Shown piece by piece: positions 94 to 21,965 of a DNA stretch of 23,268 nucleotides. Location of the stretch: the IMG/VR virus record IMGVR_UViG_3300035698_030596, positions 1 to 23,268 of that record. One strand, given 5' to 3'. A program made the translations under genes and the position numbers. This stretch comes from a virus. Numbering within the stretch: position 1 is the stretch's first letter; each line of letters begins with the position of its first letter. The notes beneath the pieces were generated by a model, which saw nothing but the letters and a program-made list of their open reading frames with translations, ran no database searches and was not told the DNA's origin.

Positions 94-510
94 TTATAGC
101 TTGAATCTCATGATGAAACTAATCATATGTTCATCATTTTCAATACTCTCTTTAATATCATCAATTGTTTCAATATACTTATTCACTGATCTTTCATTCT
201 CAAATCCCCATAATCTTACTTCAATATCTTCTGGTTCTAATACCAATAATAATCTTTGATAGATATCAAGAATCATAGGAAGAAATTTTGGATCTTTATC
301 ATATAAATTCTCCGCAGTTAAATTAGACATCTCAATAGATATTTTCCATAACCTACCACCTACCACGAATGAGTACCACCTACTACTTTTCATACACCCT
401 GTATACTCATCTTTAACAGCATAACCCTCATCACGCGCAATATTAAGAACCTGTTCAAGTTCCCATTGATCATATTCAACATTCTCATTAAATAATTTTA
501 TATACTTCAT
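94..510 (-). CDS. Unknown phage protein with capsid-targeting-like N-terminus
   Basis: A 138-residue soluble protein that I do not recognise. It begins MKYIKLFNEN, which fits the short N-terminal pattern shared by several unrelated proteins in this window (see findings). The rest is acidic and mixed alpha/beta, with no signal peptide, no membrane segment and no catalytic motif that I can name. Its ATG overlaps the TGA of the upstream TOPRIM gene by four bases (ATGA), so the two are probably translationally coupled and belong to the minus-strand unit that starts with the probable small terminase. If the N-terminal peptide is a packaging tag, this would be an internal head protein; that is inference. 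The gene is real on the evidence of its overlap, its length and its N-terminal motif; function unknown. Confidence 0.75.
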   Translation of the reverse strand: MKYIKLFNENVEYDQWELEQVLNIARDEGYAVKDEYTGCMKSSRWYSFVVGGRLWKISIEMSNLTAENLYDKDPKFLPMILDIYQRLLLVLEPEDIEVRLWGFENERSVNKYIETIDDIKESIENDEHMISFIMRFKL

Positions 511-1100
511 TTAATCTCATCCAAACATTTTTTCAAAAAGACTTTTGCTTCTTCAGGATTTAAATCATTAACATCTTTACCCGTCTCAACACAAAATGAG
601 TAATCACCAACTGTTTGAAGTTTTAAACTATCTTTATTACCATCATTATCATAAATAACAATTTTCTTTTGTGGAATAGTTGCTAACCAAGAACGCATTG
701 AGCTATTTGGATCATTACAAAGTGTTGCAATAGCTGGATAACCTGCTTCATGTATTCGAGCAGCATCAAATACTCCTTCAACAATAAAAACAAAATCATC
801 TGTAAAGTTGGTTGATTCTAAACCCCATACTGCAATTTTAGGACCTTTATCTTCTCTAGTTGCCCAAATATAATATTTAACCATTCGAGGATCAGTAACT
901 TTATTCTGACCTTTTTTAGGATATTTAGGATTATATTTCTGATAACCTACCATTTGTCCCGATAAATTATAAAGGAAGAAAAAAACATCACCATGCTCAT
1001 CATCAATAATGACACGGGTTTTCTTAACATCAACACCTCGTTCTTTGAGATGTTCTATTGTATTAAATTTTTCAAGTATAAATTCAGCATATGAGAACAT
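507..1100 (-). CDS. Stand-alone TOPRIM domain protein (primase-like)
   Basis: A 197-residue protein with a recognisable TOPRIM domain in its second half. A hydrophobic strand runs into the conserved glutamate motif (IVEGVFDAAR, E108 and D112), and about 40 residues later another strand runs into the acidic motif (IVIYDNDGN, D151 and D153). This is the metal-binding core used by DnaG-type primases, topoisomerases and OLD nucleases. The sequence just before it resembles the linker in primases of the DnaG/gp4 type. No zinc finger and no helicase domain are present, so it is either a minimal primase-like nuclease/transferase or part of a split system. The N-terminus MFSYAEFILEKF loosely fits the shared capsid-targeting-like pattern. 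It lies 16 bases after the probable terS and overlaps the next gene by ATGA. TOPRIM assignment good; biochemical role unknown. Confidence 0.75.
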   Translation of the reverse strand: MFSYAEFILEKFNTIEHLKERGVDVKKTRVIIDDEHGDVFFFLYNLSGQMVGYQKYNPKYPKKGQNKVTDPRMVKYYIWATREDKGPKIAVWGLESTNFTDDFVFIVEGVFDAARIHEAGYPAIATLCNDPNSSMRSWLATIPQKKIVIYDNDGNKDSLKLQTVGDYSFCVETGKDVNDLNPEEAKVFLKKCLDEIK

Positions 1101-1116
1101 ATACTATTTATTAAAT

Positions 1117-1746
1117 TTATTTACCAGATTTCTTGTCTAACAAAACAGCTTTATTAATCATATCATTAAGATTTGAATTATCAATAACTTGACCTTCATT
1201 ATCATCACCAGTTGATTCAGTGACAGAAGTTACTACCTCCATTAAATCATTTCTAAAATCTTTATAGAATTTTTCCAAATCTGATTTTTGCGACATAGCA
1301 AATTTTGAATTTTCACGAACTTCTTTAATTGTTTGATTAACAACTTCATGCATACGTGCTGAATTATCACCATTATCAACTTGTCTCATCTGAATAATGA
1401 AATTCTTTCTGGTCATTTTCTGCAAGAAAACTGTTTCCGCATAAACCATCGCATCTTCACGAAGCTTATTCTTTATATAGGGATGTGTTTTTAAATCTGG
1501 AAATTCACCCAAATAAAGGTCGACCAATGATTCTAAAACTTCTAATCCCTTTCTAGAAGCGGAAATAAGGTCTGAATCATAATCATATAATTCAATTTCA
1601 CCCAGATCTGGCAAGTCTTCAATTGTTGCAAGGTGCTGACTTATATCAAAATCTTCAGAACCTGCACCATTATTCTCTTCTTGTATTAAATCGAACTCAT
1701 CAATTAATCTTTTTGCTTCTTTATCTTTCTTTGACTCTTTAGCCAT
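1117..1746 (-). CDS. terS: Probable terminase small subunit (T4 gp16-like)
   Basis: A 209-residue acidic, mainly helical protein encoded divergently from the large terminase. The start MAKESKKDKE at 1746 is preferred to an upstream in-frame ATG at 1833, because the upstream extension overlaps the divergent gene and an AATATATAC promoter box lies between the two starts. An acidic N-terminal part contains a DLPDLGE element reminiscent of the DLPGIDGEE element of T4 gp16. It is followed by long helices (about residues 75-175) that could form the oligomerising coiled-coil core, including a KFYKDFRND segment comparable to KLHKDMKD in gp16. Small terminases recognise the packaging start and regulate the large-subunit ATPase. 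The call rests on this weak resemblance plus the position next to terL, and it remains unconfirmed. Confidence 0.55.
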   Translation of the reverse strand: MAKESKKDKEAKRLIDEFDLIQEENNGAGSEDFDISQHLATIEDLPDLGEIELYDYDSDLISASRKGLEVLESLVDLYLGEFPDLKTHPYIKNKLREDAMVYAETVFLQKMTRKNFIIQMRQVDNGDNSARMHEVVNQTIKEVRENSKFAMSQKSDLEKFYKDFRNDLMEVVTSVTESTGDDNEGQVIDNSNLNDMINKAVLLDKKSGK

Positions 1747-1767
1747 ATGAAAATTATATATTTTGTA

Positions 1768-1778
1768 GTATATATTAA
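1768..1778 (-). promoter_or_regulatory. Phage promoter-like box TTAATATATAC
   Basis: On the minus strand TTAATATATAC lies about 21 bases before the probable terS start. It matches the box found before most transcription units here and is divergent from the box at 1814. Confidence 0.5.
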
Positions 1779-1813
1779 TCTTTTTGTGTGGAATTTTTTC
1801 CACTTTTAAGACA

Positions 1814-1823
1814 AAATATATAC
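1814..1823 (+). promoter_or_regulatory. Phage promoter-like box AAATATATAC
   Basis: This box ends three bases before the ATG of the ribbon-helix-helix gene. As a -10 element it would place the transcript start at or inside the coding region. There is no Shine-Dalgarno sequence. Confidence 0.5.
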
Positions 1824-1826
1824 ACC

Positions 1827-2000
1827 ATGTCAAGAAAACGAGGATTAAACAAAAGCAAAGTCGGATTTTCAGTAGATATTGAGCTAGTTAAAGAACTAGA
1901 TGAGTACTGTGAAGAGAACTATATGAATAAGTCCAAAATTGTTAATGACCTTTTAAAAAGGTTCCTCGAATCAAAAAAAATTAAAGACAATGGCAACTAG
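1827..2000 (+). CDS. Ribbon-helix-helix (Arc/CopG-type) DNA-binding protein
   Basis: A 57-residue basic protein. The start MSRKRGLNKSK is chosen because a promoter-like box sits just upstream and the ribbon-helix-helix fold begins immediately after it; an in-frame ATG at 1788 overlaps the divergent gene. A basic tail leads into a beta strand (KVGFSVDIE, about residues 12-20), then helix 1 (ELVKELDEYCEE) and helix 2 (NKSKIVNDLLKRFLESK), as in the MetJ/Arc/CopG family. These proteins bind DNA as dimers through the paired strands. The gene overlaps the large terminase start by 11 bases and shares its unit, so it may repress the terS/terL divergent promoter or assist packaging-site recognition; both roles are inference. 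The fold is fairly secure. Confidence 0.75.
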   Translation: MSRKRGLNKSKVGFSVDIELVKELDEYCEENYMNKSKIVNDLLKRFLESKKIKDNGN

Positions 2001-4086
2001 ACAAGTAGTGTGGACCACTAAAATGGTGGATGACGCAATAGATAAAATAAACAATGGATTTCTTTTAAAAACACACGATATGCCTTTTTACGAGAAGGTA
2101 ATCGGTTTAAGAAAAGCCAAATTAACAACATCACTTTCAACTGATGAAATCAGTGAGTATATAAAGTGTAAAACAGATATACATTATTTCTCTGAAAATT
2201 ACTGTTATATTAAAGGGGAGAGAGGTGAGCAAATACCCTTAGTTTTAAGGGACTATCAAAAAGAAATTTTAGATAATTTCTTTAATCATAAATTTAACAT
2301 ATTAATGGCATCAAGACAAATTGGGAAAACAATTTGTTCTGCTATTATGATATTACACTTTGTATTATTCAATAATGGTAAAAATGTACTGGTAACAGCG
2401 AATAAATTAGACACAGCGGTTGAAATACTTGACAAAATCCGTGAAATCTATCAGCAACTACCATTCTTTTTACAACAGGGTATTATAAACTGGAATCAAA
2501 AAATGATAGTATTTGAAAATAAAAGCCGTATTAAAGGGTTTGCAACAACAAAAACATCATCAATTGGACAAACGGCTGACTTTTTATACCTTGATGAGTT
2601 TGCATACCTACCTGATAGCATCGCTGAGAAATTTTATAAATCAGTTTTCCCAACAGTTGCTAATATTGAAAACTCAAAGATTATAATAACATCAACTCCA
2701 AACGGATTTAACCTATTTCATAAACTATTAATGGATGCAGAAAAGCCTGAAGGTGAAAAATCAAACTACATAGCTAACCGTGTATATTGGTGGCAAGTAG
2801 ATAAACGACATGTGACTTATATAAGGTTAAATCATGCGGAAATGGAACAGCGCGAAATAAATAAAGAAGAACTGTTTGAATATATTCAAGAAAAATATCC
2901 TAATAATAAATCTGAAATGCACTGGGATGATGATATAAATAAATGGATAATTACAATATTTAATTCAGAAGGATGTGAAGAAGATGAGATCATAAGAGAG
3001 GAATTCAACGGAATTAAATTTCCTATTTTAGGTGAAATAACAACTTGGAAAAAAGAAACTATCAAGGATATTGGTGGTGAAGAAGCTTTTAACCAAGAAT
3101 TTGACCTAAAATTTATAAATGCATCTCGAAGCCTTCTTGAAGAAGGATTAATCGAGGAATTACAAACCAATCAAGATAAATATGAATTCCAACCAATTAA
3201 TGAATTTGATGATAAGTTAAAATTCTCTTATAGAGATTTGAAATGGACAACTAACAAAGATCTTTATGATTCTCCAATGAGGAAAAGCATTAAAGGTATT
3301 ATGTCTGTCGATATATCGGAAGGATTAGGACAAGACCATTCAGTTATTAACATATTTCGATTAATGCCCAAATCTATTAAAGATATTGAGAAAAATCATA
3401 TGAATTTTAAAAATATAACTGATTTTTTTGAACTAAGACAAATTGGAATGTACAGATCAAATGTTGTCTCAGTGCAACAATTATCTGAATTACTTTATAT
3501 GCTAGCATTTGAACATTTCGATTCTGAAAATTTCAAAGTAGTATTAGAATTAAATCAATATGGTAATGAATTACTAGCACATATGCCTGGTCTATTTGAA
3601 GGTAAAAATCAATATGGATCATTTATATTTTTCAGATATAAACACAGAATAGATTCAGAAGATGAAAAAATAGGTTTGAAAGTAACTGGCATTAAAAATC
3701 TTATGATGAAGGATTACCAAGAAAAATTACATAATAGGGATCTTATTATTAATAATAATGATAATATTACCGAAATGACAACATTTATTAAACACACAGC
3801 AGCAAATGGTACAGTAAAATATGCAGCAGATGGAAAATCAAATGATGATATGGTAATGACAGTTGTTAATATGGCTTATACAATGAATAAAAATGTATAT
3901 AAGAACTTTGTGGAAGATTACCATTTTTCATTAGAGGGTAATATCAAAACTATTATTGATAAGCTTCTTAACGAAATTGAATATACAGAAGGGGTTGACT
4001 ATTCTCAGCTATTGAGAATACGTAAAAATAAGTTATCTTATGATCAACAAATGGCAAATGCTAAGAAACAATGGGGAGTTGGTTAA
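1990..4086 (+). CDS. terL: Terminase large subunit (T4 gp17-type ATPase/nuclease)
   Basis: A 698-residue DNA-packaging motor. The ATPase half shows Walker A ASRQIGKT (107-114), Walker B FLYLDEFAY with catalytic E203, and coupling motif III TSTPNG (about 234-239). The K113-to-E203 spacing of 90 residues equals that of T4 gp17 as I recall it. The RNase-H-fold nuclease half shows D441 (SVDISEG), E520 (VVLELN) and D619/D620 (SNDDMVM), the metal-binding triad. It translocates DNA into the prohead at the portal and cuts it at headful. It is longer than gp17 (610 residues): the stretch between motif III and the first nuclease aspartate is about 90 residues longer (about 260-370, rich in W, D and E), and the N-terminus before Walker A is about 50 shorter. 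Its TAA shares bases with the convergent clpS stop. Confidence 0.97.
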   Translation: MATRQVVWTTKMVDDAIDKINNGFLLKTHDMPFYEKVIGLRKAKLTTSLSTDEISEYIKCKTDIHYFSENYCYIKGERGEQIPLVLRDYQKEILDNFFNHKFNILMASRQIGKTICSAIMILHFVLFNNGKNVLVTANKLDTAVEILDKIREIYQQLPFFLQQGIINWNQKMIVFENKSRIKGFATTKTSSIGQTADFLYLDEFAYLPDSIAEKFYKSVFPTVANIENSKIIITSTPNGFNLFHKLLMDAEKPEGEKSNYIANRVYWWQVDKRHVTYIRLNHAEMEQREINKEELFEYIQEKYPNNKSEMHWDDDINKWIITIFNSEGCEEDEIIREEFNGIKFPILGEITTWKKETIKDIGGEEAFNQEFDLKFINASRSLLEEGLIEELQTNQDKYEFQPINEFDDKLKFSYRDLKWTTNKDLYDSPMRKSIKGIMSVDISEGLGQDHSVINIFRLMPKSIKDIEKNHMNFKNITDFFELRQIGMYRSNVVSVQQLSELLYMLAFEHFDSENFKVVLELNQYGNELLAHMPGLFEGKNQYGSFIFFRYKHRIDSEDEKIGLKVTGIKNLMMKDYQEKLHNRDLIINNNDNITEMTTFIKHTAANGTVKYAADGKSNDDMVMTVVNMAYTMNKNVYKNFVEDYHFSLEGNIKTIIDKLLNEIEYTEGVDYSQLLRIRKNKLSYDQQMANAKKQWGVG

Positions 4087-4364
4087 CTAACTTCAACGGT
4101 AACTAATAGGCCCGCATTTTCAAGTTTTTCTTTCATATCATTTAATGTATCAAGATCACCATATTTAACATCACATTCCCCTTTGAAATGTACAATATGT
4201 GCACATTGACTAGCTTGTTCAAATTGGTGTCGACAGACTTCCATTAAACATTTTATTACCCAATCAAAGGTATTGAAATCATCATTATGCATAATTAATT
4301 TATAAGGCTGTGACCTAATGGTTTTAGCTTGTGATTTTTTTTGTTTTCTAGTTATTGTTCCCAT
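4083..4364 (-). CDS. clpS: ClpS, ATP-dependent Clp protease adaptor
   Basis: A 93-residue protein that is recognisably ClpS. After a basic, flexible N-terminal tail (1-20) come strand YKLIMHNDDFNTFDW with the N-degron-binding N27, D28 and D29, helix VIKCLMEVCRH, the QASQCAHIVHFKGEC segment carrying the conserved histidine H59, and the C-terminal VKYGDLDTLNDMKEKLENAG part. The NDDxNTFD pattern and the CxHxxxQAxQCA stretch match the Bacteroidota version rather than the proteobacterial NDDYTPME version. ClpS hands proteins with N-terminal bulky hydrophobic residues to ClpAP or ClpCP. The long basic tail could reach the Clp ATPase. It follows the HAD gene by three bases and its stop overlaps the terminase stop. 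Host-derived in origin and probably used to redirect host proteolysis (inference). Confidence 0.93.
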   Translation of the reverse strand: MGTITRKQKKSQAKTIRSQPYKLIMHNDDFNTFDWVIKCLMEVCRHQFEQASQCAHIVHFKGECDVKYGDLDTLNDMKEKLENAGLLVTVEVS

Positions 4365-4367
4365 ATT

Positions 4368-6100: not shown

Positions 6101-6736
6101 ATGAAACATATTAGAAAATTTGAAAGTCACAGAGAATATCGTCAGAAGTACGATCTTATCCAAGAACTTGTAATGCAAAAAGGGAATGACTGGACTGTTA
6201 AAGCTAATATAGATATCCCACAGTCACTTATTAACGCATACGTTAAAAAGACAAAAGAAACTACTGGAAAGGATTTGAGAAAATTCTTTGGAGATGCTGA
6301 AATTGCACAGGATATGGTAAAATTTGTTACCACTAATTTCATGGATGTTGATAATATTCATGGTGGTGCATTAACAGGAGATGAAGAAACAAGCCCACAA
6401 CTAGATGCAACAGCTCCACAAGCACAGACACAAATGGAACCAGGTATGCAGGCTCAGCCACAAATGCAGGCTCAACCAGGTATGCAGGCTCAGCCACAAA
6501 TGCAGGCTCAGCCACAAATGCAGGCTCAGCCACAAATGCAGGCTCAGCCAGGACAGGCTCAACCACAAGTACAACCACAAGCGCAAGCACAAGGAGGTAT
6601 GATGCAAGGACAACCACAAGCTCAACCACAAGTACAGGTTCAAGCTCAAGCTCAAGCACAAGATTTTGAAGATATTGAAGATGAAGAAGAACTTGATTTA
6701 TCAGATGATGAAAACACAGAAGAGCTTCCACTTTAA
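6101..6736 (+). CDS. Q/A/P-repeat protein with capsid-targeting-like N-terminus
   Basis: A 211-residue protein in three parts. Residues 1-90 are a folded-looking helical domain that begins MKHIRKFESH, the clearest example of the shared N-terminal pattern. Residues about 105-185 are low complexity, built on MQAQPQ units and ending in looser QAQPQ repeats. The last 25 residues are strongly acidic (DFEDIEDEEEL and similar). There is no membrane segment or enzyme motif. A flexible Q/A/P linker with an acidic tail would suit an internal head, scaffold-like or tail-associated protein, but I do not recognise the family. It forms a single-gene unit between its own promoter-like box and a strong terminator. 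Gene certain, function unknown. Confidence 0.8.
   Translation: MKHIRKFESHREYRQKYDLIQELVMQKGNDWTVKANIDIPQSLINAYVKKTKETTGKDLRKFFGDAEIAQDMVKFVTTNFMDVDNIHGGALTGDEETSPQLDATAPQAQTQMEPGMQAQPQMQAQPGMQAQPQMQAQPQMQAQPQMQAQPGQAQPQVQPQAQAQGGMMQGQPQAQPQVQVQAQAQAQDFEDIEDEEELDLSDDENTEELPL
6446..6553 (+). repeat. Six 18-bp tandem repeats inside a coding gene
   Basis: Six head-to-tail 18-base units (ATGCAGGCTCAGCCACAA and near-identical forms) start at 6446, 6464, 6482, 6500, 6518 and 6536. Units differ mainly in the last codon (CAA, GGT or GGA) and one synonymous CAG/CAA change. The period is a multiple of three, so gain or loss of units keeps the MQAQPQ reading frame. Such near-identical repeats are prone to slippage, so copy number may vary between isolates. 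Confidence 0.97.
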
Positions 6737-6802: not shown

Positions 6803-7420
6803 ATGGGAATATTATCATTTAATGAATACAATACGTATCAAGAAACTAATCTTTTAGTTGTTGATGTTCAGAAATCTTTTAGTGATTTTTTTACACCTCT
6901 CTATCTAAGTAAGGTACATGAATACTGTGGTGATTATACAAATGTTTATCAAATATGGGATAATCATATCGATGGTCATGGTGTAGATAAAGATTTCCTA
7001 TATGATGATAAACCAGATGTCCCTGTACACGGAGACTTATATACATTTCCTAACCAAAAATTATTAATTGAAAAAAGATATAATTATGGTGTCGATGCTG
7101 ATTTTTATAAATCAATATTAGAAGAGCGAACATACCAAGAAATAAAAGAGAAAGAGAAAGCAAGAACTCTTAAAAAAGGTGATTTATACTTAACTACTAA
7201 GGGAACTTGTATCGTATTTGTTGGAAACCATCATCAATGGTTTCATGTTGGGAGAAAAATGTTAGACTTTTTCAATTCACTAAAAGGTAAACATATAACA
7301 ATAATTGGTGGATCAGATTCGGAATGCTTGGATGATATTTATACTGCTGCTGAATCAATTGGAGTTATTATTAAAAGAGATTGGAAATATATTTACACAG
7401 CCGTAAATTGTCCTATATAA
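6803..7420 (+). CDS. Isochorismatase/nicotinamidase-like cysteine hydrolase
   Basis: A 205-residue protein with the Asp-Lys-Cys catalytic layout of the isochorismatase superfamily: D21 in LLVVDVQ, K91 in LLIEKRYNYG, and C175 in GGSDSECLDDIYTAAESIG. A D-x-H-x3-H cluster (WDNHIDGHG; D53, H55, H59) sits where nicotinamidases bind their metal, so a PncA-like activity (nicotinamide to nicotinate) is plausible. A lysine/glutamate-rich insert of about 25 residues (108-132) is not typical. The N-terminus MGILSFNEYN resembles the shared capsid-targeting-like peptide. It stands alone between two terminators, so it is transcribed separately. Superfamily fairly secure; substrate unproven, and other amidases or isochorismatase-like enzymes remain possible. 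Confidence 0.7.
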   Translation: MGILSFNEYNTYQETNLLVVDVQKSFSDFFTPLYLSKVHEYCGDYTNVYQIWDNHIDGHGVDKDFLYDDKPDVPVHGDLYTFPNQKLLIEKRYNYGVDADFYKSILEERTYQEIKEKEKARTLKKGDLYLTTKGTCIVFVGNHHQWFHVGRKMLDFFNSLKGKHITIIGGSDSECLDDIYTAAESIGVIIKRDWKYIYTAVNCPI

Positions 7421-9350: not shown

Positions 9351-12214
9351 TAGTCAAGTTGATTTTGTTTTATTGAGTTCAAATATGTTTTCAACGTTCC
9401 TTTTGAACCAACTACACTTGATATATCAGCCAAAATTCCTGTCATTCTATCTATTTTCATACCCAAATCTTTTATATCTGAATTACCAGCAGCCACAGGT
9501 GTCATTTTAATTCCTGAAGAGCCTGAGCTAGTTGACTCAGATTTTTTAGATTCAAAGTCTTCTACTAACTGTGATAACACACCTGATCTATCCTCTAGAC
9601 TAGACATAATTTCCTCAAATTGTTGTGGATCTGTGAGTGATAACAGAACTATACTTGAAGACATTGATCTAACAGCAGCCAATTTCTCAGCATCTATACT
9701 AGATATAGTATCATTAAACTTTGTAAATGAACTTGATAATTTATCAAATGCTATTGCTAAAGATGTTATACTACTTACCATTGATTTTAACGGTGCAACT
9801 TCTGCGGTTCCCTTAAAAGTATTTTTAACAAGTTTCATCATTTCACCATATTTCTGTAAAGTGAATAATGTTCCTTCCATCCAGGCTTTTGAAGGATATT
9901 TAGCAAAATCTCCCTTTGAAAATATTTTATCAATTTCTAAAACACTATGTGCGATTTTATCTAAACCACCACCAGCCATTTTTTTAAGTTTATCACCAAG
10001 TATGTCTTTCATACTTTTAGCACTCATAAGTGCTGAAAACTTTGATAAAGTTCCTACTGAACCTTCAACCCAATCAACACTAGGATATTTAGTATATGAA
10101 CCCTTGCTAAATAATAAGTCAATTTTCAATATTGATTTTGCTATACCGTCAATACCACCAATCAATTTCATTATTCCTTGTTTAGCCAAATCTTTAAATC
10201 CGATACCTGATATAAATTCAGTAAATTTAGACAAAACACCTAATGCCCCTTGTACCCATAACATTGGAGGGAAAGAAGTATATTGTCCACTAGATAATAT
10301 CTCATCTGTTTTTACTATCATCGTTGCAATTCCTAATATTGCTAATGTACCCGCAGCCATTGCTGCTGCACCAAGTCCAAATGTTCCTATAAACAATGCA
10401 CCAATTGCTAATGCTGATACCCCAAATATTAATAAAGATAATCCTGTACCAACTATCCATTCAGAGCTTGGAAATTTAGAATAATCTCCCATTGCTAAGA
10501 TAGCATCAACACCAACCATCAAGGCTGCTATTCCTAAAACGGCAGCACCACCTGCTAATAAAGCTACTGCTCCCATACCACCAGTCGCGGTAATTAAGAA
10601 GCCTAAACCAAGAGTCATAACTGCAAAAGCAAATATACTAACGCCCGTTCCAAGTGTCCAATCTAACGATGGATATTTTTTATACTCACCATAACTTAAT
10701 ATCATCGAGGATAATGAAATAACCCCTGCAATCATAACAACTGCTAAACCACCTTGTAAATAGTCTTTCATCGTACCTAGTTTAGATATTCCAAACATAG
10801 CTAATGCCATAACAAATGAGCTAACTGCTAAACCAATACTCAACGCAGTGAACATAAAAATACCTCCTAATGTCACTGGAGCCATCATTGCAACAGCATA
10901 TGATGCTGCTGATACTGAAGCACTTATTATAACTATAGATGCCGCTCCTTTTAATATATCTTTTACTGCCATACCTTTTAATGGCTTAATCGCCACTACC
11001 ATCATAGCAGTAACAATACTTGTTGCAACCCCTAATAATCCAAATTTTAATATCTGAACAAAGCCAACATCAGCCATCGTGGCTAATAGATGTGAAGATG
11101 CTACAATAGAAGCTGACATAATAACCATCATAGCAGCTCCTTTAAACATATCTTTTACCGATACATCCTTTATACTTTTCATCAATGGTCTAATTGCATA
11201 TGAAATAGCAAAAAATACTCCTGCAATAACAACAGAGCTTATAGCAGCACCCAGTCCAATCCATTGAACATTTTTTAATATTTTAGAAGATTCTACAATA
11301 GCATATGAAATACCAATTAATACTAAAGGCATTAACGCTGCTGCCGCAATAGCTTCAATTGGCTTTATACCTTTAAAAGCTCCTATTAAATTCCCTAAAC
11401 CATAGGAAATTGCTCCAAATGCTCCTGCAATAACAACTACTGAGAACGCTTGTGCTAACCCTATTGGTACGGTCTGAGCAAGTATATAAGATGATGCAGC
11501 AATAGCCACACTAACGCCCAATAGAACAACTGGCATCAACCAGGCAGCCTTTAAAGCATCAGCAGGTGCAATATCTTTAAACCCTGTAATCATTTTACCT
11601 AATGAAAAAGACATTAACGAAAAAGCTCCTGCAATGGCTACAACGCTTAATAACTGCATCGGTCCTAATATCGCAATATGTGATAAAATATAAGATGATG
11701 CTACAAGTGATAAAGACATAGATGTAATAATACCAAAAATCGATAAGGCGGAACTATAGTCTAAATCCATAGCCGCAATTTTTTCAAATGAATAAGCAAT
11801 CATTGGTAATGATAAAGATAACGCCAGCACTGAAGAAAAATCTACTTCCCCAATAAGCTTAAATGCTAAACCAATAGCCAATATACCACCAGCAATCAAA
11901 ACAATCATACCAACACCCTTTTTGATACCATCCATTGCACCACTCTTCTTATCACCACCAAACAATGAATTTTCAGCAGATTTTTCCTTTGATAATTGAA
12001 TAATTGTTTGTTGATTGTCTAATATTTTTGATGTATCTGTTTTAATAGCTTTGACACCATTATTAATTTCTTTTAGTTGTTCACTAAAGTCACCACTCTG
12101 TAGTGCTGAACCAACAGCAGTCTTTGATTCTCCCTTTTTCTTATCTAAAGATTCAGAGATTTTTTCGAGTGCAACCGATAGGTTGCTAAGGGCATCTAAT
12201 AATTGTTTATCCAT
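9350..12214 (-). CDS. Giant hydrophobic repeat protein, probable tail tape measure
   Basis: A 954-residue protein. Residues 1-95 are hydrophilic and helical; about 98-640 are dominated by long hydrophobic helices; about 640-790 are amphipathic; 800-954 are helical and Ser/Lys-rich. It is built from degenerate tandem repeats of about 62-68 residues. The first series carries an A-S-S-Y-I-L-type motif (near 173, 241, 309, 373, 437). The second carries G-x-Y-x-K-Y-P-S-x-x-W (509, 576, 643, 705, 768), often followed by GT or GS. Size, helical repeats and hydrophobic segments fit tail tape-measure proteins, which set tail length and can enter the host membrane. A full helix would give a tail of roughly 140 nm by the 0.15 nm per residue rule. 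A non-tape-measure structural role is possible. Confidence 0.6.
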   Translation of the reverse strand: MDKQLLDALSNLSVALEKISESLDKKKGESKTAVGSALQSGDFSEQLKEINNGVKAIKTDTSKILDNQQTIIQLSKEKSAENSLFGGDKKSGAMDGIKKGVGMIVLIAGGILAIGLAFKLIGEVDFSSVLALSLSLPMIAYSFEKIAAMDLDYSSALSIFGIITSMSLSLVASSYILSHIAILGPMQLLSVVAIAGAFSLMSFSLGKMITGFKDIAPADALKAAWLMPVVLLGVSVAIAASSYILAQTVPIGLAQAFSVVVIAGAFGAISYGLGNLIGAFKGIKPIEAIAAAALMPLVLIGISYAIVESSKILKNVQWIGLGAAISSVVIAGVFFAISYAIRPLMKSIKDVSVKDMFKGAAMMVIMSASIVASSHLLATMADVGFVQILKFGLLGVATSIVTAMMVVAIKPLKGMAVKDILKGAASIVIISASVSAASYAVAMMAPVTLGGIFMFTALSIGLAVSSFVMALAMFGISKLGTMKDYLQGGLAVVMIAGVISLSSMILSYGEYKKYPSLDWTLGTGVSIFAFAVMTLGLGFLITATGGMGAVALLAGGAAVLGIAALMVGVDAILAMGDYSKFPSSEWIVGTGLSLLIFGVSALAIGALFIGTFGLGAAAMAAGTLAILGIATMIVKTDEILSSGQYTSFPPMLWVQGALGVLSKFTEFISGIGFKDLAKQGIMKLIGGIDGIAKSILKIDLLFSKGSYTKYPSVDWVEGSVGTLSKFSALMSAKSMKDILGDKLKKMAGGGLDKIAHSVLEIDKIFSKGDFAKYPSKAWMEGTLFTLQKYGEMMKLVKNTFKGTAEVAPLKSMVSSITSLAIAFDKLSSSFTKFNDTISSIDAEKLAAVRSMSSSIVLLSLTDPQQFEEIMSSLEDRSGVLSQLVEDFESKKSESTSSGSSGIKMTPVAAGNSDIKDLGMKIDRMTGILADISSVVGSKGTLKTYLNSIKQNQLD

Positions 12215-12261: not shown

Positions 12262-12272
12262 TTAATATATAC
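12262..12272 (+). promoter_or_regulatory. Phage promoter-like box TTAATATATAC
   Basis: Lies 24 bases upstream of the ATG at 12297 and three bases upstream of an in-frame GTG at 12276. Confidence 0.5.
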
Positions 12273-12296: not shown

Positions 12297-12752
12297 ATGG
12301 GATTTAGAAAATTTATACACAAAATTGATGAATCATTGAAGGATAAACAATTAAATAGGATTCTAGACAAGTTGAAGAATGGAGATATTTCTCCACGTGA
12401 AAAGAGATTTTTAGACAATTACGACAAAAGAACTGATAAAGATCTTATGGATTTTCATATGCTAGATAAATTAAGCACTTTTAATAAGATTACATCAATA
12501 ATTGAACGTGGTAAAAAGATTATCTGTAACCTAACAGATCGAAATGGTAAATTTGGTATTGAAATTAAAACTATTACTAATAATTACCAAGAACAAGAAA
12601 CAATAATATTCTTAACAAACGGTGAAGAGGTTATTTTAGAAGATAATTATCTATATAATATTATTTATAATTTCCAAAAAGATATTTATTCCTTAGAAGA
12701 ACATGATGAATATTTTGAAAAAATTCCAGTTAAAAGTGATGAAAATCTATAA
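12297..12752 (+). CDS. Unknown protein with capsid-targeting-like N-terminus
   Basis: A 151-residue charged protein that I do not recognise. The ATG at 12297 is chosen because it gives MGFRKFIHKIDES, which fits the shared N-terminal pattern, and leaves a 24-base leader after the promoter-like box. An in-frame GTG at 12276 would add seven residues. Residues about 20-60 are helical and basic (DKLKNGDISPREKRFLDNYDK), followed by a beta-rich domain (IICNLTDRNGKFGIEIKTI and ILEDNYLYNII). It overlaps the next gene by 14 bases. No enzyme motif is visible. Gene probable; function unknown, perhaps an internal head protein if the tag idea holds. Confidence 0.72.
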   Translation: MGFRKFIHKIDESLKDKQLNRILDKLKNGDISPREKRFLDNYDKRTDKDLMDFHMLDKLSTFNKITSIIERGKKIICNLTDRNGKFGIEIKTITNNYQEQETIIFLTNGEEVILEDNYLYNIIYNFQKDIYSLEEHDEYFEKIPVKSDENL

Positions 12753-13014
12753 TTTTATACAATTTTGTAATGAAGAAGTCGGTGGTGTCGAATTAATTGG
12801 ACATATGGGACCAAATTATGGTGAAGAAGGGAATAATAAAATGATTGGTCCCTCTCCTACTGATGTTATCTATAGTGAAATATCTTCAAAAATGTACACA
12901 CAAGACGAATATCAAGAATTATATCATAATTACTTAAAGAATGGTGGAAAACCATTACATGGATTTAATCAAGAAAATTTAGATTATGTATTAACAAATA
13001 TAAATGAGGAATAA
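12739..13014 (+). CDS. Small unknown protein with capsid-targeting-like N-terminus
   Basis: A 91-residue protein with no recognised domain. The start at 12739 is preferred because MKIYNFIQFCNEE matches the shared N-terminal pattern; an upstream in-frame ATG at 12703 lies deep inside the preceding gene. The middle holds a Gly/Pro/Asn-rich loop (GHMGPNYGEEG and GPSPTDV) and the C-terminal half is helical with several tyrosines. It overlaps the upstream gene by 14 bases and its TAA is one base from the stop of the convergent tail gene. Function unknown. Confidence 0.65.
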   Translation: MKIYNFIQFCNEEVGGVELIGHMGPNYGEEGNNKMIGPSPTDVIYSEISSKMYTQDEYQELYHNYLKNGGKPLHGFNQENLDYVLTNINEE

Positions 13015-15064: not shown

Positions 15065-15388
15065 ATGAAACATCTAAAACATTTTGAAAATAGTCGATTT
15101 ACTGAAAAAATAAAAGTCAGTAAATATGATGGATTACAACAACGCGCACTACCTACTAAAAGGAGATTAAGTGAAGAAGAAAATAAATTTATGCTTACTA
15201 ATATGTCAAATTATGCATGGTCAAATTTTATTGATGCAAATGGACATATAGGATTGGGTGGTGGTATGAGCGATAATGAGGAACAAGAACCTACTTTTAG
15301 GAGCTATATTACTGAAGATGATTTATTGAATGCAATGGTTGCTGACCGTTTTGAGAAGGCTAAACGTCGCGTTTGTGGTTCTTTTTAA
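15065..15388 (+). CDS. Small unknown protein with capsid-targeting-like N-terminus
   Basis: A 107-residue protein that begins MKHLKHFENSRF, almost the same as the MKHIRKFES start of the Q/A/P-repeat protein, while the rest of the two proteins is unrelated. After a basic segment (about 15-35) it has a helical part, a glycine stretch (IGLGGGMSD) and a charged C-terminus with a run of basic residues (FEKAKRRV). No recognised domain. Its last 29 bases overlap the convergent homing-endonuclease-like gene. The near-identity of the first nine residues with an otherwise different protein supports both the start codon and a shared targeting role. Function unknown. Confidence 0.75.
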   Translation: MKHLKHFENSRFTEKIKVSKYDGLQQRALPTKRRLSEEENKFMLTNMSNYAWSNFIDANGHIGLGGGMSDNEEQEPTFRSYITEDDLLNAMVADRFEKAKRRVCGSF

Positions 15389-17368: not shown

Positions 17369-17382
17369 AAAAAATTATTATC

Positions 17383-17577
17383 ATGAAGAAGATATTACTA
17401 AACATATTAGAATCTAAACAAATTGAACTAAGTGAAAAAAGATTCGATATTGTTTATAAAGCTGGTGTTAATAATATTATTTCTAACCTAGATTATTACC
17501 ACAATAAGCCATATAGCTGTAAGTCGGTATTAATGACATTATTTGAAGAAGGAGTATTGAAAGAGTTACAAAAATGA
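17383..17577 (+). CDS. Small unknown protein downstream of uvsX
   Basis: A 64-residue, mainly helical, basic protein that I do not recognise. It begins MKKILLNILESKQIELSEK and contains one tight Tyr-Tyr-His-Asn turn and two cysteine-free helices at the C-terminus (SVLMTLFEEGVLKELQK). The gene starts 14 bases after uvsX with an AAAAAAATTATTATC leader, so it is probably co-transcribed and could be an accessory of recombination, but nothing in its sequence shows this. Its short length makes it less certain than its neighbours. Confidence 0.6.
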   Translation: MKKILLNILESKQIELSEKRFDIVYKAGVNNIISNLDYYHNKPYSCKSVLMTLFEEGVLKELQK

Positions 17578-17625
17578 AATTTGTCCACCTTTCAACGTAT
17601 CTCGGACAATACTTCTTACTTTAAA

Positions 17626-17898
17626 TTATCTATATTTTATTACACCACCAATATTATTTGTAGTTGGTGCATTAAGACTCTTAGCTTGACCAAATAAAAA
17701 TTCAGTATATCTTTGAATTTGGTCTGGATGTTTAGTGAAATATTTTACTAAAGTATTTCTTTTTTCATCATCACTCATTTCATCCTGGTCATCCAAATTA
17801 TATAATTGAAATAATCTTAATAAGTTATTATCAACAAATCCTTCAGCATCTAATTGTGTTTTAGGATTATATCCTTCATAATCTTCAATGTATTCCAT
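17626..17898 (-). CDS. Small acidic unknown protein
   Basis: A 90-residue acidic, helical protein with no recognised motif. It begins MEYIEDYEGYNPKTQ and contains an Asp-rich turn (LDDQDEMSDDEKRN) followed by a helix-rich C-terminal part. Its ATG overlaps the stop of the upstream ART-like gene by one base (TAATG), so the two are coupled. By analogy with enzyme/partner pairs it might be an immunity, chaperone or regulator protein for the ART candidate, but that is only a positional guess. Confidence 0.65.
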   Translation of the reverse strand: MEYIEDYEGYNPKTQLDAEGFVDNNLLRLFQLYNLDDQDEMSDDEKRNTLVKYFTKHPDQIQRYTEFLFGQAKSLNAPTTNNIGGVIKYR

Positions 17899-18332
17899 TA
17901 TTGTTGTGATACTATTTTAGCCTCGGTTGTTGTATAAACCCATAATGGATCATTAACCACACTATTAGGCTCACCTTTCCAAAAGTTTTCTGCCATTAAT
18001 TTAATCTTATGCTCATCTTGAACTTCTTTAATGCTTGTTACCCATGATAAATCATGTTTATTGACTTCAGAAGTAGGTTCAACCGTATACAAATTATCGG
18101 TATTTCCACCAGCTTCGGATATTTTATCAGGATCATCACACATAAATAATGCTTCTCTATGTGATAATTTATTTTCAGGTCTATATTTTTCAACTATAGA
18201 AAAAGAATTTTCTTGTTCTTGATTATATCTATCACCACCTTTTAGTGTTTCACCTATTGGAAGTTCAATTCTACTACCATGATAGTATACTCTATCCGAG
18301 CTTTCAAAGTATTTGTGGAATTTTTTTATCAT
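17898..18332 (-). CDS. Putative ADP-ribosyltransferase (Arr-like) with capsid-targeting-like N-terminus
   Basis: A 144-residue protein. After the tag-like start MIKKFHKYFESS, residues 16-33 read YYHGSRIELPIGETLKGG, which matches the N-terminal motif of rifampin ADP-ribosyltransferases (YHGT...L..G..L.PG; H18 is the NAD-binding histidine). A central segment EALFMCDDPDKISEAGG (60-76) sits where Arr has its second strand and helix. LYTVEPTSEVNKHD (81-94) parallels the Arr VEP-x-G motif before its aspartate, FWKGEPNS (117-124) parallels its FPGNPTKSY segment, and PLWVYTTTEAKIV resembles its final strand. The length equals Arr (about 140). The family transfers ADP-ribose from NAD. A classical catalytic tyrosine is not obvious. 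T4 packages the ART Alt; a similar role is inference. The gene is coupled to the next one by TAATG. Confidence 0.5.
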   Translation of the reverse strand: MIKKFHKYFESSDRVYYHGSRIELPIGETLKGGDRYNQEQENSFSIVEKYRPENKLSHREALFMCDDPDKISEAGGNTDNLYTVEPTSEVNKHDLSWVTSIKEVQDEHKIKLMAENFWKGEPNSVVNDPLWVYTTTEAKIVSQQ

Positions 18333-18335
18333 AAA

Positions 18336-18346
18336 CTATATATTAA
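18336..18346 (-). promoter_or_regulatory. Phage promoter-like box TTAATATATAG
   Basis: On the minus strand TTAATATATAG ends three bases before the ART-like gene's ATG. Confidence 0.5.
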
Positions 18347-18389
18347 AAACAACTTTTTTAAAAAAGTATCTATAAATACAGTTTGTCTT

Positions 18390-18420
18390 TTTGGCAACTG
18401 TAAAAAAATAACTATATTTG
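18390..18420 (+). promoter_or_regulatory. Bacteroidota-type promoter (TTTG-N19-TAnnTTTG)
   Basis: TTTG at 18390-18393 and TATATTTG at 18413-18420 are 19 bases apart, matching the host primary-sigma consensus of Bacteroidota (-33 TTTG, -7 TAnnTTTG). The metallophosphoesterase ATG follows six bases later. A TATAAATA at 18371 is also present. This is the only exact host-type promoter that I noticed in the window, so the gene may be expressed early by host polymerase. Confidence 0.55.
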
Positions 18421-18425
18421 TAATA

Positions 18426-19040
18426 ATGATTTTAAGAGACAAAATACAAACAGACAAAGACCAAGAGGTATACTTCGCATCGGACTATCACTTTTGGCAC
18501 AAAAATGTTATCCGTTTTGACGGACGACCTTACGATAATGTCGTAGACATGAATGAAGAATTAATTGTTAAATGGAATAACAAAGTTAGTCCAGATGATA
18601 AAGTTTATTATTTAGGTGATATGGCTTTCGCCAGTAAAAACAAAACTCACGATTTAGTTTGGAGATTAAATGGTAAAATAACAATGATTATGGGTAACCA
18701 TGATCGTTATCAAACTATTGAACGAACAAAGAGATTTGACGGAATTTATGATTATGGAGAACTTTGGGTAACTGATGGCTCAGAATCACTTTCTGGAAAA
18801 TCACAAACACAACACATCTGTATGAGCCACTACCCTTTTATGGTTTGGAATGGACATCACAGAGGAAGTTGGATGTTACACGGACACTGCCATAACAGTT
18901 TGCGAAAAAACCAACCTGAATTCTACAACCGAAAAATTGAAGATATGGGATTGAACCACTGGAACTATGAACCAGTTTCTTACCAAGAACTGAAAGAAGT
19001 TATGGATAAGAAAATAATAGCAACAGTTGACCATCACTAA
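18426..19040 (+). CDS. Calcineurin-like metallophosphoesterase
   Basis: A 204-residue enzyme with every metal-binding block of the calcineurin-like phosphoesterase fold: D20-x-H22 in ASDYHFWH, G64-D65 in YYLGDM, G90-N91-H92-D93 in MGNHDR, H135 in MSHYPF, and G153-H154-x-H156 in LHGHCH. These coordinate two metals that hydrolyse phosphomonoesters or diesters; small phage relatives of this size act on unknown substrates. The start MILRDKIQTD is preferred because earlier in-frame ATGs lie in the intergenic and antisense region and would cover the promoter. The ATG is six bases after a host-type -7 box. The stop overlaps the next ATG (TAATG). Fold certain, substrate unknown; nucleotides or RNA ends are possible. 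Confidence 0.93.
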   Translation: MILRDKIQTDKDQEVYFASDYHFWHKNVIRFDGRPYDNVVDMNEELIVKWNNKVSPDDKVYYLGDMAFASKNKTHDLVWRLNGKITMIMGNHDRYQTIERTKRFDGIYDYGELWVTDGSESLSGKSQTQHICMSHYPFMVWNGHHRGSWMLHGHCHNSLRKNQPEFYNRKIEDMGLNHWNYEPVSYQELKEVMDKKIIATVDHH

Positions 19041-19423
19041 TGAAAAAGGCTGATAGAAAATTTTGTAAAAATAGAGGAAAAAGGATAGCTAATTGGTTAA
19101 ATAAAAGTTATCCTTTTTCTTCATATAACAAAACAAACCAAAATAATTATTCAAAATTAATCTATCGTTGGGTCGCTGAGGAAAGAAAAACAAAACTGAT
19201 TGTACAAGTAACACAAGAAAGATCTAACATCAACTTAGAAATAAGAAGAGCAGGGTTACCACATTTTGGTGGAAAACAAAAACCATTTATAATAAAACAG
19301 AAGAATTTTAACCTATTAAAAGAAGAATCCTTCGATGAATTCAAGAAAGAAGTAAGAGTTCTAGAAGACTTAGTATACAAATCATATGCCAGACACAGAA
19401 AAATCTCACAAATATTAATATAA
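19040..19423 (+). CDS. Small basic protein of unknown function
   Basis: A 127-residue, strongly basic protein (many Lys, Arg and Asn), with no recognised domain. The first third is basic and helical (KKADRKFCKNRGKRIANWLNK), the middle is beta-like (KLIVQVTQERSNINLEIRR), and the C-terminus is helical and charged. The charge suggests nucleic-acid binding, which is inference. Its ATG overlaps the metallophosphoesterase stop by one base, so it is translationally coupled and may work with that enzyme. Confidence 0.72.
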   Translation: MKKADRKFCKNRGKRIANWLNKSYPFSSYNKTNQNNYSKLIYRWVAEERKTKLIVQVTQERSNINLEIRRAGLPHFGGKQKPFIIKQKNFNLLKEESFDEFKKEVRVLEDLVYKSYARHRKISQILI

Positions 19424-19446
19424 TATATGGTATATCATGATGTTGC

Positions 19447-19974
19447 ATGAAATGTAAAAAACCATCAAAAATGGCAAAAGAAAAACAAACAATAGAATTT
19501 TACTACGGGAGAAGGTGGTTTGATATACGATTATCAGTATCATCAAACGCATATCATCTTCATTTTAGCACTATTCAAGAAGCAAATGACTTTTATGATC
19601 ATTATGATAAAACAACAGATAGAACATATCTTTTAAAAAATGTCTATCTTGATGGAGAACAGTATAATACAGGCATTGTTCCTGATACTCATGATGCTGT
19701 TACTTTTAAATATTGGGGAAATCAGTACCATGACATCGAAGCGGATAAAAAAAACAAAGTATATCGTGGCAAACCTCGTAACCGTGAAGAAATACTAAAA
19801 GACCGTGAATTATATAAACAATTAAATGGTAAAACTATCATAGTTAAAACAGATAAAGGCAGAGGCGGTGGTTTTAGTAATGGTAAAAATTGGGGAAACC
19901 CTGATTGGCGAGAAGTTAAATCACTTGTCTTACGAACAATTCGAAATGATAATTTGGATAAGCTATTAGATTAG
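19447..19974 (+). CDS. Unknown phage protein
   Basis: A 175-residue protein (or 167 if translation begins at the in-frame ATG 19471, MAKEKQTIEF). It is rich in aromatic residues and charged, with beta-like segments (IEFYYGRRWFDIRLSV, YLLKNVYLDGEQYNT) and a lysine/arginine/glycine loop (KTDKGRGGGFSNGKNWGN) near the C-terminus. I do not recognise a family. TAATATATGG at 19421 could be a degenerate promoter box; otherwise the gene follows the metallophosphoesterase unit by 23 bases. Its TAG shares bases with the stop of the convergent gene. Confidence 0.7.
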   Translation: MKCKKPSKMAKEKQTIEFYYGRRWFDIRLSVSSNAYHLHFSTIQEANDFYDHYDKTTDRTYLLKNVYLDGEQYNTGIVPDTHDAVTFKYWGNQYHDIEADKKNKVYRGKPRNREEILKDRELYKQLNGKTIIVKTDKGRGGGFSNGKNWGNPDWREVKSLVLRTIRNDNLDKLLD

Positions 19975-20699
19975 TGTTCAGACTTACCACCCCAATCATA
20001 TTCTACAATTAAGTGACCATTAGAGGTCAAAGTGTGTTTTTCCTTATCAACACTTAATATACCACAAACAGCTTCGCTTACTTTTGTAGCACTTAATTGC
20101 TTTTCTAAAACTTGGTTGAACTTTTCTTCATCGATAAAGTCCTTTACTTCGATTTTAATACCAATATCCATAACTTCCATTGTTTCATTAACAAGTTTCG
20201 TGTATGAATAATCAATCAAGTTAGATTTAACTTTTTCAAGCTCATCTTTTGTATAAATAACGACTTTTGTATCATATTTATTCCCATTAACAGAGAAATG
20301 ATGCTTTTCAGAGTTTTTAATATCTACATGACCTAATGATGTATCATAATGGTCAGCAATAATTTTTTCATGCTCGACAGTCGCCTTATCGATTCCCCGA
20401 TATAAACACTCTTGTATTTTCTGAACACGATATGAATCAGATTCTAATACTGAGAAACCCTCAAATGTAAGAACACCATCTTCTGCCATTGATTTTCTAT
20501 CACCTATAACATCATTAATAACTTTTTCAATTCGGTTAATACCATCAAGCCCATTTCTTTCTAGAAATGATATAAGCCTAGTATTATTCTTAAAATACTT
20601 ATCTAGCCTTTTTGGATTAATTTTCCATTTTTCAACATATTCATCGATATATTCATTAACTAATTTATAATATCTGTTCAGTTCTTCTGAATTTCCCAT
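19971..20699 (-). CDS. Unknown phage protein
   Basis: A 242-residue soluble protein with no motif that I recognise. The first 75 residues are helical and charged (MGNSEELNRYYKLVNEYIDEY...). The middle holds beta segments with several histidines (HYDTSLGHVDIKNSEKHHFSV, about 117-137), which might bind metal. The C-terminal half is alpha/beta and ends in a Trp-Gly-Gly turn. The start MGNSEELNRY does not fit the shared N-terminal tag. An AAATATATAG box ends three bases before the start. Stop bases are shared with the convergent 19447-19974 gene. Gene secure, function unknown. Confidence 0.75.
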   Translation of the reverse strand: MGNSEELNRYYKLVNEYIDEYVEKWKINPKRLDKYFKNNTRLISFLERNGLDGINRIEKVINDVIGDRKSMAEDGVLTFEGFSVLESDSYRVQKIQECLYRGIDKATVEHEKIIADHYDTSLGHVDIKNSEKHHFSVNGNKYDTKVVIYTKDELEKVKSNLIDYSYTKLVNETMEVMDIGIKIEVKDFIDEEKFNQVLEKQLSATKVSEAVCGILSVDKEKHTLTSNGHLIVEYDWGGKSEH

Positions 20700-20702
20700 G
20701 TT

Positions 20703-20713
20703 CTATATATTTA
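20703..20713 (-). promoter_or_regulatory. Phage promoter-like box AAATATATAG
   Basis: On the minus strand TAAATATATAG ends three bases before the ATG at 20699. It is divergent from the box at 20738. Confidence 0.5.
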
Positions 20714-20737
20714 TCATTGAGATTGGATATTCGCCTC

Positions 20738-20746
20738 TTAATATAT
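20738..20746 (+). promoter_or_regulatory. Phage promoter-like box TTAATATAT
   Basis: TTAATATAT runs directly into the ATG at 20747, so the box and the start codon overlap or touch. A more upstream promoter is not obvious. Confidence 0.35.
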
Positions 20747-21676
20747 ATGTTAGAAAAATATCAAAAATTTGTGAATTTAAGAGAATCTAAAGCATATTTC
20801 AATCGGAAACCAGTAGAATACATATTAAAAGAATCATATGATGATTTAAGAGAGGATCATGAGTTTATTCCAAGATTTTCATTGAAAAATATACGTGATT
20901 TCCAAAATATACCGATTAATGAACCGATTAAATATGACCAGAACATAATGATTAAAGCAATCAAGTATGGAATGATATTCTTAATCAACTATAAAGGAGA
21001 AAAAGATAAGCATTTTGCAGGTCATGAGCGTGTAATATACCCAATGGTGCTTGGACGTTCATCTAAAGGTAAAATACTTGTTAGAGGATGGCACTTGAAC
21101 GGATGGTCTGTATCAACAAATAGACATATTAATAAAATATGGAGAATGTTCAGGGCAGATAGAATTTTATCAATGACATTTACTGGTTCTTTTTATAGGT
21201 TAGCACCAAATGGTTATAATATGTATGATAAAGGTATGAGAGGTGGAATAATCGCTCGTGCAGATTTTAATGCTATTAGAAGAAACCAACAAACACTAGT
21301 TAAAGCACAAGCAATTCAAAATAAGGATGAAGTTTCACTAGAAAATGAAAATTCAAAATTTGCTACAATTAAAGTCAAACCAACAGATACTAAATTCGAC
21401 TTAGATAACCTTGAAGAGAATTCATATTTTAATAATATCAAAGATACTGAGGGAGTTCGTATATCATTCTTAAAAAGTATTTATGGAAATGAATATTTAT
21501 GCATTTTAGGAGCTATTGGCAGACCAGGAAATACAGTTAAAATACTAACTGACACAGGTCGTAATATTGGTGTTTATAAAGTTCTTGATTCAACAACTGG
21601 AGATGTGCTTAAAAATATTAAGAATGTAAAGGGTAATAAAATATATGATCTCTACATTTTTGATAAGAAATTATAA
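20747..21676 (+). CDS. WYL-like domain protein with capsid-targeting-like N-terminus
   Basis: A 309-residue protein. The start at 20747 gives MLEKYQKFVNLRES, a looser fit to the shared N-terminal pattern; an in-frame ATG at 20717 would place a promoter-like box inside the gene. Residues about 68-150 resemble a WYL domain: a hydrophobic strand IFLINYKG, then GHERVIYPMVLGRSSKGKILVRGWH with the conserved R-x-I-x-P-x-x-L-G pattern, and IWRMFRADRIL matching the conserved ending of that fold. WYL domains bind nucleic acids or nucleotide ligands and regulate bacterial transcription and defence. A separate C-terminal beta domain (about 205-309) is not recognised. No helix-turn-helix is present. The domain call is by motif resemblance only. 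Confidence 0.5.
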   Translation: MLEKYQKFVNLRESKAYFNRKPVEYILKESYDDLREDHEFIPRFSLKNIRDFQNIPINEPIKYDQNIMIKAIKYGMIFLINYKGEKDKHFAGHERVIYPMVLGRSSKGKILVRGWHLNGWSVSTNRHINKIWRMFRADRILSMTFTGSFYRLAPNGYNMYDKGMRGGIIARADFNAIRRNQQTLVKAQAIQNKDEVSLENENSKFATIKVKPTDTKFDLDNLEENSYFNNIKDTEGVRISFLKSIYGNEYLCILGAIGRPGNTVKILTDTGRNIGVYKVLDSTTGDVLKNIKNVKGNKIYDLYIFDKKL

Positions 21677-21683
21677 TATATAA
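21674..21683 (+). promoter_or_regulatory. Weak promoter-like box TAATATATAA
   Basis: Overlaps the stop of the WYL-like gene and ends three bases before the ATG at 21687. It could be chance in AT-rich DNA. Confidence 0.3.
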
Positions 21684-21686
21684 TTT

Positions 21687-21965
21687 ATGTTAAGAACATT
21701 TGAAGAATATACAGGAAAATCACCACTAGTTTTGCTAATAGATGATGAAGGGAATGAGTTAATGATTCCTGGTAATTATGAAGAAGGTGTTGGAATTTTT
21801 GATACTGAAGGAAATGAATATCCAGCAGGTGTTATGAGAGATGGAAGCGTTGTAGTTGCAAAAGCCGAAGGAAATTCTGCATTAAAATTATCAGGTGAAA
21901 CACCAGTTGATGGATTAAAAAATTGCTTACAAGACGGGTTTAATTACTTTGAAGGAAACGAATAA
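21687..21965 (+). CDS. Small beta-rich unknown protein with capsid-targeting-like N-terminus
   Basis: A 92-residue acidic protein that begins MLRTFEEYTGKSP, fitting the shared N-terminal pattern. The remainder reads as short strands with Gly/Asp turns (LVLLIDDEGNELMIPGNYEEG, GIFDTEGNEYPAGV, GSVVVAKAEGNS), suggesting a small beta barrel or sandwich. No enzyme motif. It starts 10 bases after the WYL-like gene and ends two bases before the PPK2 start, so the three form one unit. Function unknown; a packaged partner of its neighbours is possible but unsupported. Confidence 0.72.
   Translation: MLRTFEEYTGKSPLVLLIDDEGNELMIPGNYEEGVGIFDTEGNEYPAGVMRDGSVVVAKAEGNSALKLSGETPVDGLKNCLQDGFNYFEGNE

Follow-up and report, generated by a model that had tools for sequence, protein, structure and literature searches.

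The window analysed here comprises the 23,268 bases of IMG/VR virus record IMGVR_UViG_3300035698_030596, a viral fragment that is part of a larger phage genome. An earlier note on this DNA had listed ten proteins with different bodies that begin with a similar short peptide, and had likened that peptide to the capsid targeting sequence (CTS) of phage T4 internal proteins. All ten N-termini are present in the sequence where they had been placed. The peptide, designated a tag below, is 9 to 13 residues long and comes in two types, A (M-K-[YH]-[LI]-K-x-[FY]-...-E) and B (M-I-K-K-[YFW]-x-x-F-[IL]-x-E). Seven of the ten proteins, those with coordinates beginning at 94, 507, 6101, 6803, 12739, 15065 and 17898, carry it; the protein at 12297 is a probable variant, the one at 21687 is undecided, and the one at 20747 was removed from the list.

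Tagged genes in the window and in related megaphages

The TerL protein of the window (1990-4086) is 52% identical to those of LR756502 (W01, 642 kb) and LR745206 (W02, 635 kb), the nearest records to the window phage, and 37% identical to those of LR756504 (W03, 636 kb) and LR756501 (W04, 735 kb). Mahaphage genomes of more than 634 kb have predicted hosts among the Bacteroidetes (PMC7162821). For the analyses below, W01-W03 were taken complete and W04 and a further relative, W08, in part, with genes called by a codon-usage script. A profile of the two tag types was trained on the other genomes and scored on the genome left out; Table 1 lists the genes of the window.

Table 1. Genes of the window that carry the tag or were considered as carriers; a slash marks the putative cleavage position
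Feature	Positions	Strand	Remarks
Tagged protein, 138 aa	94..510	-	Tag MKYIKLFNE (484-510); profile score 12.3; body without assigned function
Tagged TOPRIM / DnaG-primase-like protein, 197 aa	507..1100	-	Tag MFSYAEFILE (1071-1100); phrog_849, E 3.5e-29, residues 12-194
Tagged protein, 211 aa	6101..6736	+	Tag MKHIRKFE (6101-6124); profile score 13.0
Tagged nicotinamidase/isochorismatase-like protein, 205 aa	6803..7420	+	Tag MGILSFNE (6803-6826)
Protein with probable variant tag, 151 aa	12297..12752	+	MGFRKFIHKIDE/S; late-type box TTAATATATA at 12262-12271
Tagged protein, 91 aa	12739..13014	+	Tag MKIYNFIQFCNE (12739-12774); body from about VGGVELIG
Tagged protein, 107 aa	15065..15388	+	Tag MKHLKHFE (15065-15088); profile score 12.9; AATATATA box just upstream
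Tagged protein, weakly Arr-ms-like, 144 aa	17898..18332	-	Tag MIKKFHKYFE (18303-18332); profile score 6.3
Untagged protein (WYL-like in the earlier note)	20771..21676	+	Likely true start GTG at 20771
Protein with MLRTFEEYTG start, 92 aa	21687..21965	+	Profile score -0.1; without Glu site
PPK2-like protein, untagged in the window	21968..23050	+	Orthologues tagged, MINNFIKFINEE in W01 and MPVYNFHKFINEE in W02

The motif proposed in the earlier note occurs at the starts of 7 of the 31 called genes of the window, against an expectation of 1.0 from internal methionines or 2.3+-1.2 from shuffled N-termini. Across the relatives it is found at 182 of 932 starts in W01 (54.1+-6.5 when shuffled), 161 of 924 in W02 (58.4+-7.2) and 85 of 895 in W03 (46.9+-6.1), with about 35 occurrences at internal methionines in these genomes. 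The genome-wide excess over shuffled N-termini that had been put forward as a check is thus borne out, and the held-out profile agrees, calling 154 of 932 (W01), 136 of 924 (W02) and 57 of 895 (W03) starts tagged where 0.3-1.5 would be expected from internal methionines and 3-5 from shuffling. Carrier counts hinge on start calling, and several clear tags escape the profile, so that the true number is probably higher.

A generic tag pattern gives 41 of 211 starts in W04 (10.2+-2.8 expected), of which the first 200 kb were scanned; over the same initial length of W08 (462 kb) any excess is weak (18 against 10.9+-3.4). In the jumbo phages PTm1 (6 against 8.6), MA9V-1 (8 against 5.6) and PAU (12 against 7.4), which also encode a protease of the Peptidase S77 family, the pattern is not clearly enriched. 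Its excess in T4 itself, 12 against 7.7, is not significant because T4 has few carriers; a strict T4-style pattern picks out exactly IPII, IPIII and gp61.1 there. The last of these (T4 18966-19130, minus strand) starts MKTFKEFIKED, like an internal protein.

What is conserved is the peptide. Information content at untagged starts collapses beyond codon 2; at tagged genes, DNA conservation drops beyond the tag, and within it synonymous codons differ, from which we conclude that the peptide is what is kept. The bodies that follow are diverse. By blastp of the bodies, 166 carriers in W01 fall into 146 clusters, and all carriers of the three genomes and the window into 302. The Pfam families represented include PPK2 (PF03976, E 5.9e-77 among the W01 carriers), phage lysozyme, T4-type RNA ligase, Acb1, 2'-5' ligase-like, SET, HNH, GNAT, DHH, Toprim, NUDIX, Sa_NUDIX, guanylate cyclase, DegT, methyltransferases, NFACT-R, M15 peptidase and peptidoglycan-binding domains. 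A tag precedes Acb1 in W01 (MIKKYLEFMKES) and W02 (MKLKKYKQFIKES) and, as a variant, one of its two copies in W03; the RNA ligase has one in W01 and W02 and lacks it in W03 and T4. One remote family, in which a motif resembling DILLDLxDDGFxV closely follows the tag, is almost wholly tagged (48 of 51 members) and supplies 31 carriers in W01 and 17 in W02; no Pfam name was seen for it (an example is W01 212797-213231, minus strand).

An exchangeable peptide behind a late-type promoter box

Orthologues of the nicotinamidase-like, TOPRIM and HAD proteins and of the protein at 12739-13014 retain a tag while changing its type. Of the 28 viral-contig orthologues of the nicotinamidase-like protein that were read, 27 begin with a tag-like peptide, and the exception (L219) has no ATG there; these starts include MKFLKTFESYN, MRHLKVYEDFN, MIKKFKLFREN and MVIDRFEKF, among others. 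The orthologues in W01, W02 and W04 also begin in this way, even though the W04 protein (start MKVIKFSDYLKES) is only 29% identical. The body starts with LIIVDVQ or a close variant, and in an AlphaFold model residues 1-11 have pLDDT below 50 and the body mostly about 90 or above. Known nicotinamidases (1ilw, 6kua and others) match this model with Z 10.7, and their own residues 1-3 correspond to model residues 12-14; a Foldseek comparison gave an E value of only 0.02. Residues D21, K91 and C175, which we take to be the Asp-Lys-Cys triad of the isochorismatase/nicotinamidase family, are invariant in 20 orthologues, so that the modelled fold and the triad together point to a member of that family; a PDB sequence search with this and the weakly Arr-ms-like protein gave no real match.

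The TOPRIM protein is tagged MKYLRTYEGF in W01 and MIIKKYIKFINEE in W02, as against MFSYAEFILE in the window, the spacing of the last being identical to that of T4 MKTYQEFIAE; T5-like TOPRIM homologues begin at the body (MTVDELTEHLLSRGFD). Orthologues of 12739-13014 start MAIKSFKSFNEEVSGTELVG and MIKKFYQFINEISGTELVG, and those of 12297-12752, which has a low profile score, start MGFKKFIKHYLLGES and MGFKKLIKYYILGES; that protein probably carries a variant tag. The orthologues of 6101-6736 start MKHIRQFESYR or MKHIRTYENYR, and the gene lies close to the terminase in W01, W02 and the window alike. This protein also has a long Gln/Met/Ala/Pro repeat tail (QPQMQAQ...). Among reciprocal best hits between W01 and W02, 32 pairs are tagged in both, 25 are discordant and 335 are tagged in neither (Fisher p 9e-27), and many of the discordant pairs bear a diverged tag that the profile misses.

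These comparisons also settle part of the membership proposed earlier. The ADP-ribosyltransferase (ART)-like, nicotinamidase-like, TOPRIM and WYL-like proteins had been grouped as one tagged set, in which the tags of the nicotinamidase-like and TOPRIM proteins stand. The ART label of 17898-18332 is weak: the Arr-ms match has E=0.0045 and 17.6 bits against a cut-off of 25, with profile position 1 at residue 16; a single-sequence structure model (pLDDT 29) is unusable, and no relatives appear among the viral contigs searched. The WYL-like protein, called at 20747-21676, was rejected as a carrier. Most of its orthologues start M(N/T/S)L... (MNLKQT, MSLSHS, MNLRQV), aligned with Val9 (GTG), 24 nt downstream of the called start, and none is tagged; TTAATATAT ends at the upstream ATG, and MLEKYQKF abuts the promoter box. 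For 21687-21965, no homologue was found in W01-W03.

Many tagged genes have a box, TTAATATATA, at about -14 to -5. Within 60 nt upstream, AATATATA precedes 78 of 166 tagged and 124 of 766 untagged genes in W01 (p 4e-16), 72 of 150 and 116 of 774 in W02 (p 2.5e-17), and 32 of 61 and 87 of 834 in W03 (p 1.7e-14), and a host-type TAnnTTTG box is depleted before tagged genes in W01 and W02. The box mostly lies immediately before the tagged cyclase, SET, PPK2, Acb1 and RNA ligase genes. It also precedes the genes for the major capsid protein (MCP), portal, protease, TerL, baseplate hub and head decoration protein, and is absent before the RNR, helicase and topoisomerase genes checked; DnaK-like and GltX-like genes (named by eye) have TAnnTTTG in place of this late-type box. 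Tagged genes and head genes have the box in common, and the former may be expressed in time for head assembly. A separate scan of IMG/VR for the promoter box followed by MK[YH]xK found Phe or Tyr at position 7, which the pattern does not demand and whose background is 16%, in 93 of 102 distinct proteins among the matches listed.

Since the box lies so near the ATG, transcripts of tagged genes may be leaderless, as for 17898-18332, where TTAATATATAGTTT lies directly upstream of the tag start (18333-18346). Untagged genes show a second box peak between about -35 and -26. In W02 (528558-529244) a class III nucleotide cyclase is tagged and stands under the late-type box; it could act in host cyclic nucleotide signalling.

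Correspondence with T4 head maturation

Mutants of T4 IPIII show that residues 4 and 7 govern targeting and residues 8 and 10 govern processing (PMC9026906). The conserved positions of the tag correspond to these: type A has Leu or Ile at 4 and Phe or Tyr at 7, and type B has the same arrangement shifted by one. Some tags in W04 are near-identical to that of T4 with a shift of one residue (MVKMFREFLNEA against MKTYQEFIAEA). A protease of the T4 gp21 type, for which the earlier note had suggested a search, is matched in every relative examined (W01-W09, Peptidase S77). Its gene adjoins that of the MCP in W01-W04, as in T4, and lies between portal and MCP in W01, W02 and W04. W04 has a second S77-like match (11386-11787, minus strand) besides the one at 73997.

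The MCP N-terminal region of W01 reads EYAEFHQINE/NAYVNASN where a T4-like propeptide should end, and its counterparts read EFHSINE/NAYAN (W02), IHE/N (W03) and MNE/N (W04). Tag ends, for example YNE/S, FNE/S, FINE/E and IFE/S (also INE), resemble this site, and a hydrophobic-x-Glu within residues 6-18 occurs in 84% (W01), 87% (W02) and 75% (W03) of tagged starts, compared with 28-32% of untagged ones.

The clade shares with T4 IPI-IPIII and Alt, which are processed by gp21 (Peptidase S77), a short N-terminal peptide with a hydrophobic residue at 4(5), an aromatic residue at 7(8) and a Glu site, an S77 protease gene next to that of the MCP, bodies that are unrelated, and, as proposed here, roles in host takeover or defence. 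T4, however, has a handful of carriers, against tens to more than 150 in this clade, where the two tag types replace each other, promoter and tag form one module, and the cargo is enzymatic (Acb1, RNA ligase, PPK2, SET, cyclase and nicotinamidase-like proteins). The jumbo phages phiKZ and SPN3US likewise eject large sets of head proteins into the host, several of which are cut by a gp21-related protease, but several of their propeptides exceed 100 residues and just one can be compared with the T4 CTS, in contrast to tags of 9-13 residues common to unrelated proteins. Polyvalent injected proteins and P1 DarA-type internal proteins also deliver anti-defence or takeover functions with the DNA; polyvalent proteins are single multidomain chains, unlike the many separate proteins with a common address proposed here. 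The open-access literature searched yielded no account of such a tag system for this clade, and no proteome of the clade was found.

Proposed capsid targeting and the alternatives

The peptide is, in our judgement, quite likely a capsid targeting sequence like that of the T4 internal proteins, in a promoter-plus-tag cassette that would send a large set of injected effectors to the capsid. The earlier proposal of a T4-type signal on unrelated proteins is upheld in its enrichment and its S77 protease, and amended in its membership list; the T4 control, the MCP propeptide end, the swapping of tags among orthologues and the common late-type promoter strengthen it. As a general account of the megaphages of this clade, we favour, with less assurance, a transferable cassette of late promoter and address that loads injected enzymes from more than 100 unrelated genes per genome into the capsid, with proposed cargo functions in anti-CBASS activity, RNA repair, cyclic nucleotide, NAD and polyphosphate metabolism, and protein modification. 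Unrelated genes would acquire a module consisting of TTAATATATA, an ATG within a few bases and a peptide of 9-13 residues. Their products would be made late, the hydrophobic/aromatic pair of the tag would bind the prohead core, and the S77 protease would cut after Glu while the head matures. The freed enzymes would then be packaged with the DNA, enter the next host with it and serve there at time zero in host takeover and defence. Given a late-type promoter on anti-host enzymes, delivery to the next host would make most sense.

Several points weigh against this reading. Packaging in the virion and cleavage of the tag are steps that we infer from sequence, and the MCP propeptide end is a putative one, placed by position. 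The S77 matches of W01-W04 score 20-25 bits (E 1e-4 to 4e-6), under the 27-bit Pfam cut-off; a PF03420 search of the window finds no protease, a result that is uninformative for a fragment. About half of the tagged genes are without an exact box within 60 nt. The profile partly contains the Glu, so enrichment and Glu-site frequency are not fully independent, and part of the carrier number reflects an expanded family (31 of the W01 carriers, as above). We know of no precedent for a single head with over 150 kinds of internal protein.

The tag might instead direct proteins to another phage-made compartment (a replication compartment, a membrane or an assembly site) and stay on them outside the virion, for an N-terminal signal common to unrelated enzymes would fit any targeting system. 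We regard this as unlikely, in view of the promoter held in common with head genes, the resemblance of the Glu sites to the MCP propeptide end, the match to T4 CTS residues, and the lack of a tag on RecA and terminase. More doubtful still is that the proteins are packaged by means of a tag that is not removed, or that anchors them to the inner shell: cleavage is putative and a minority of tags are without a clear hydrophobic-x-Glu, but the site is present in 75-87% of tags, well above its frequency in untagged starts, and an S77 protease is at hand. Enrichment of Lys2 at many starts and AT-rich genomes could suggest an effect of translation initiation or codon usage with no role for the peptide, which is scarcely credible when PTm1, MA9V-1 and PAU lack a clear enrichment, information at untagged starts ends past codon 2, synonymous codons vary, and the two tag types substitute for each other in orthologues. 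Descent of all carriers, with their starts, from one ancestor is rejected, despite the almost wholly tagged family of 51, by the unrelated bodies (146 clusters in W01), by domain assignments to unrelated Pfam families that already contradict it, and by homologues outside the clade that begin at the body.

If capsid targeting is right, the first residues of a gene would reveal which megaphage proteins travel with the DNA, and what a phage injects would become testable by sequence. Hypothetical proteins would become a catalogue of candidate effectors, extending to all 302 body clusters; one use for very large heads would be suggested, and large capsids could be loaded with enzymes by means of a short, portable peptide.

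Two other genes of the window may be added. Relatives of the PPK2-like protein in the viral contigs amount to one partial locus. The protein at 4083-4364 (minus strand) is ClpS-like by eye, with orthologues of 62-65% identity in W01 and W02 and a weaker one in W03, and phage control of N-end-rule proteolysis is a possible function for it.

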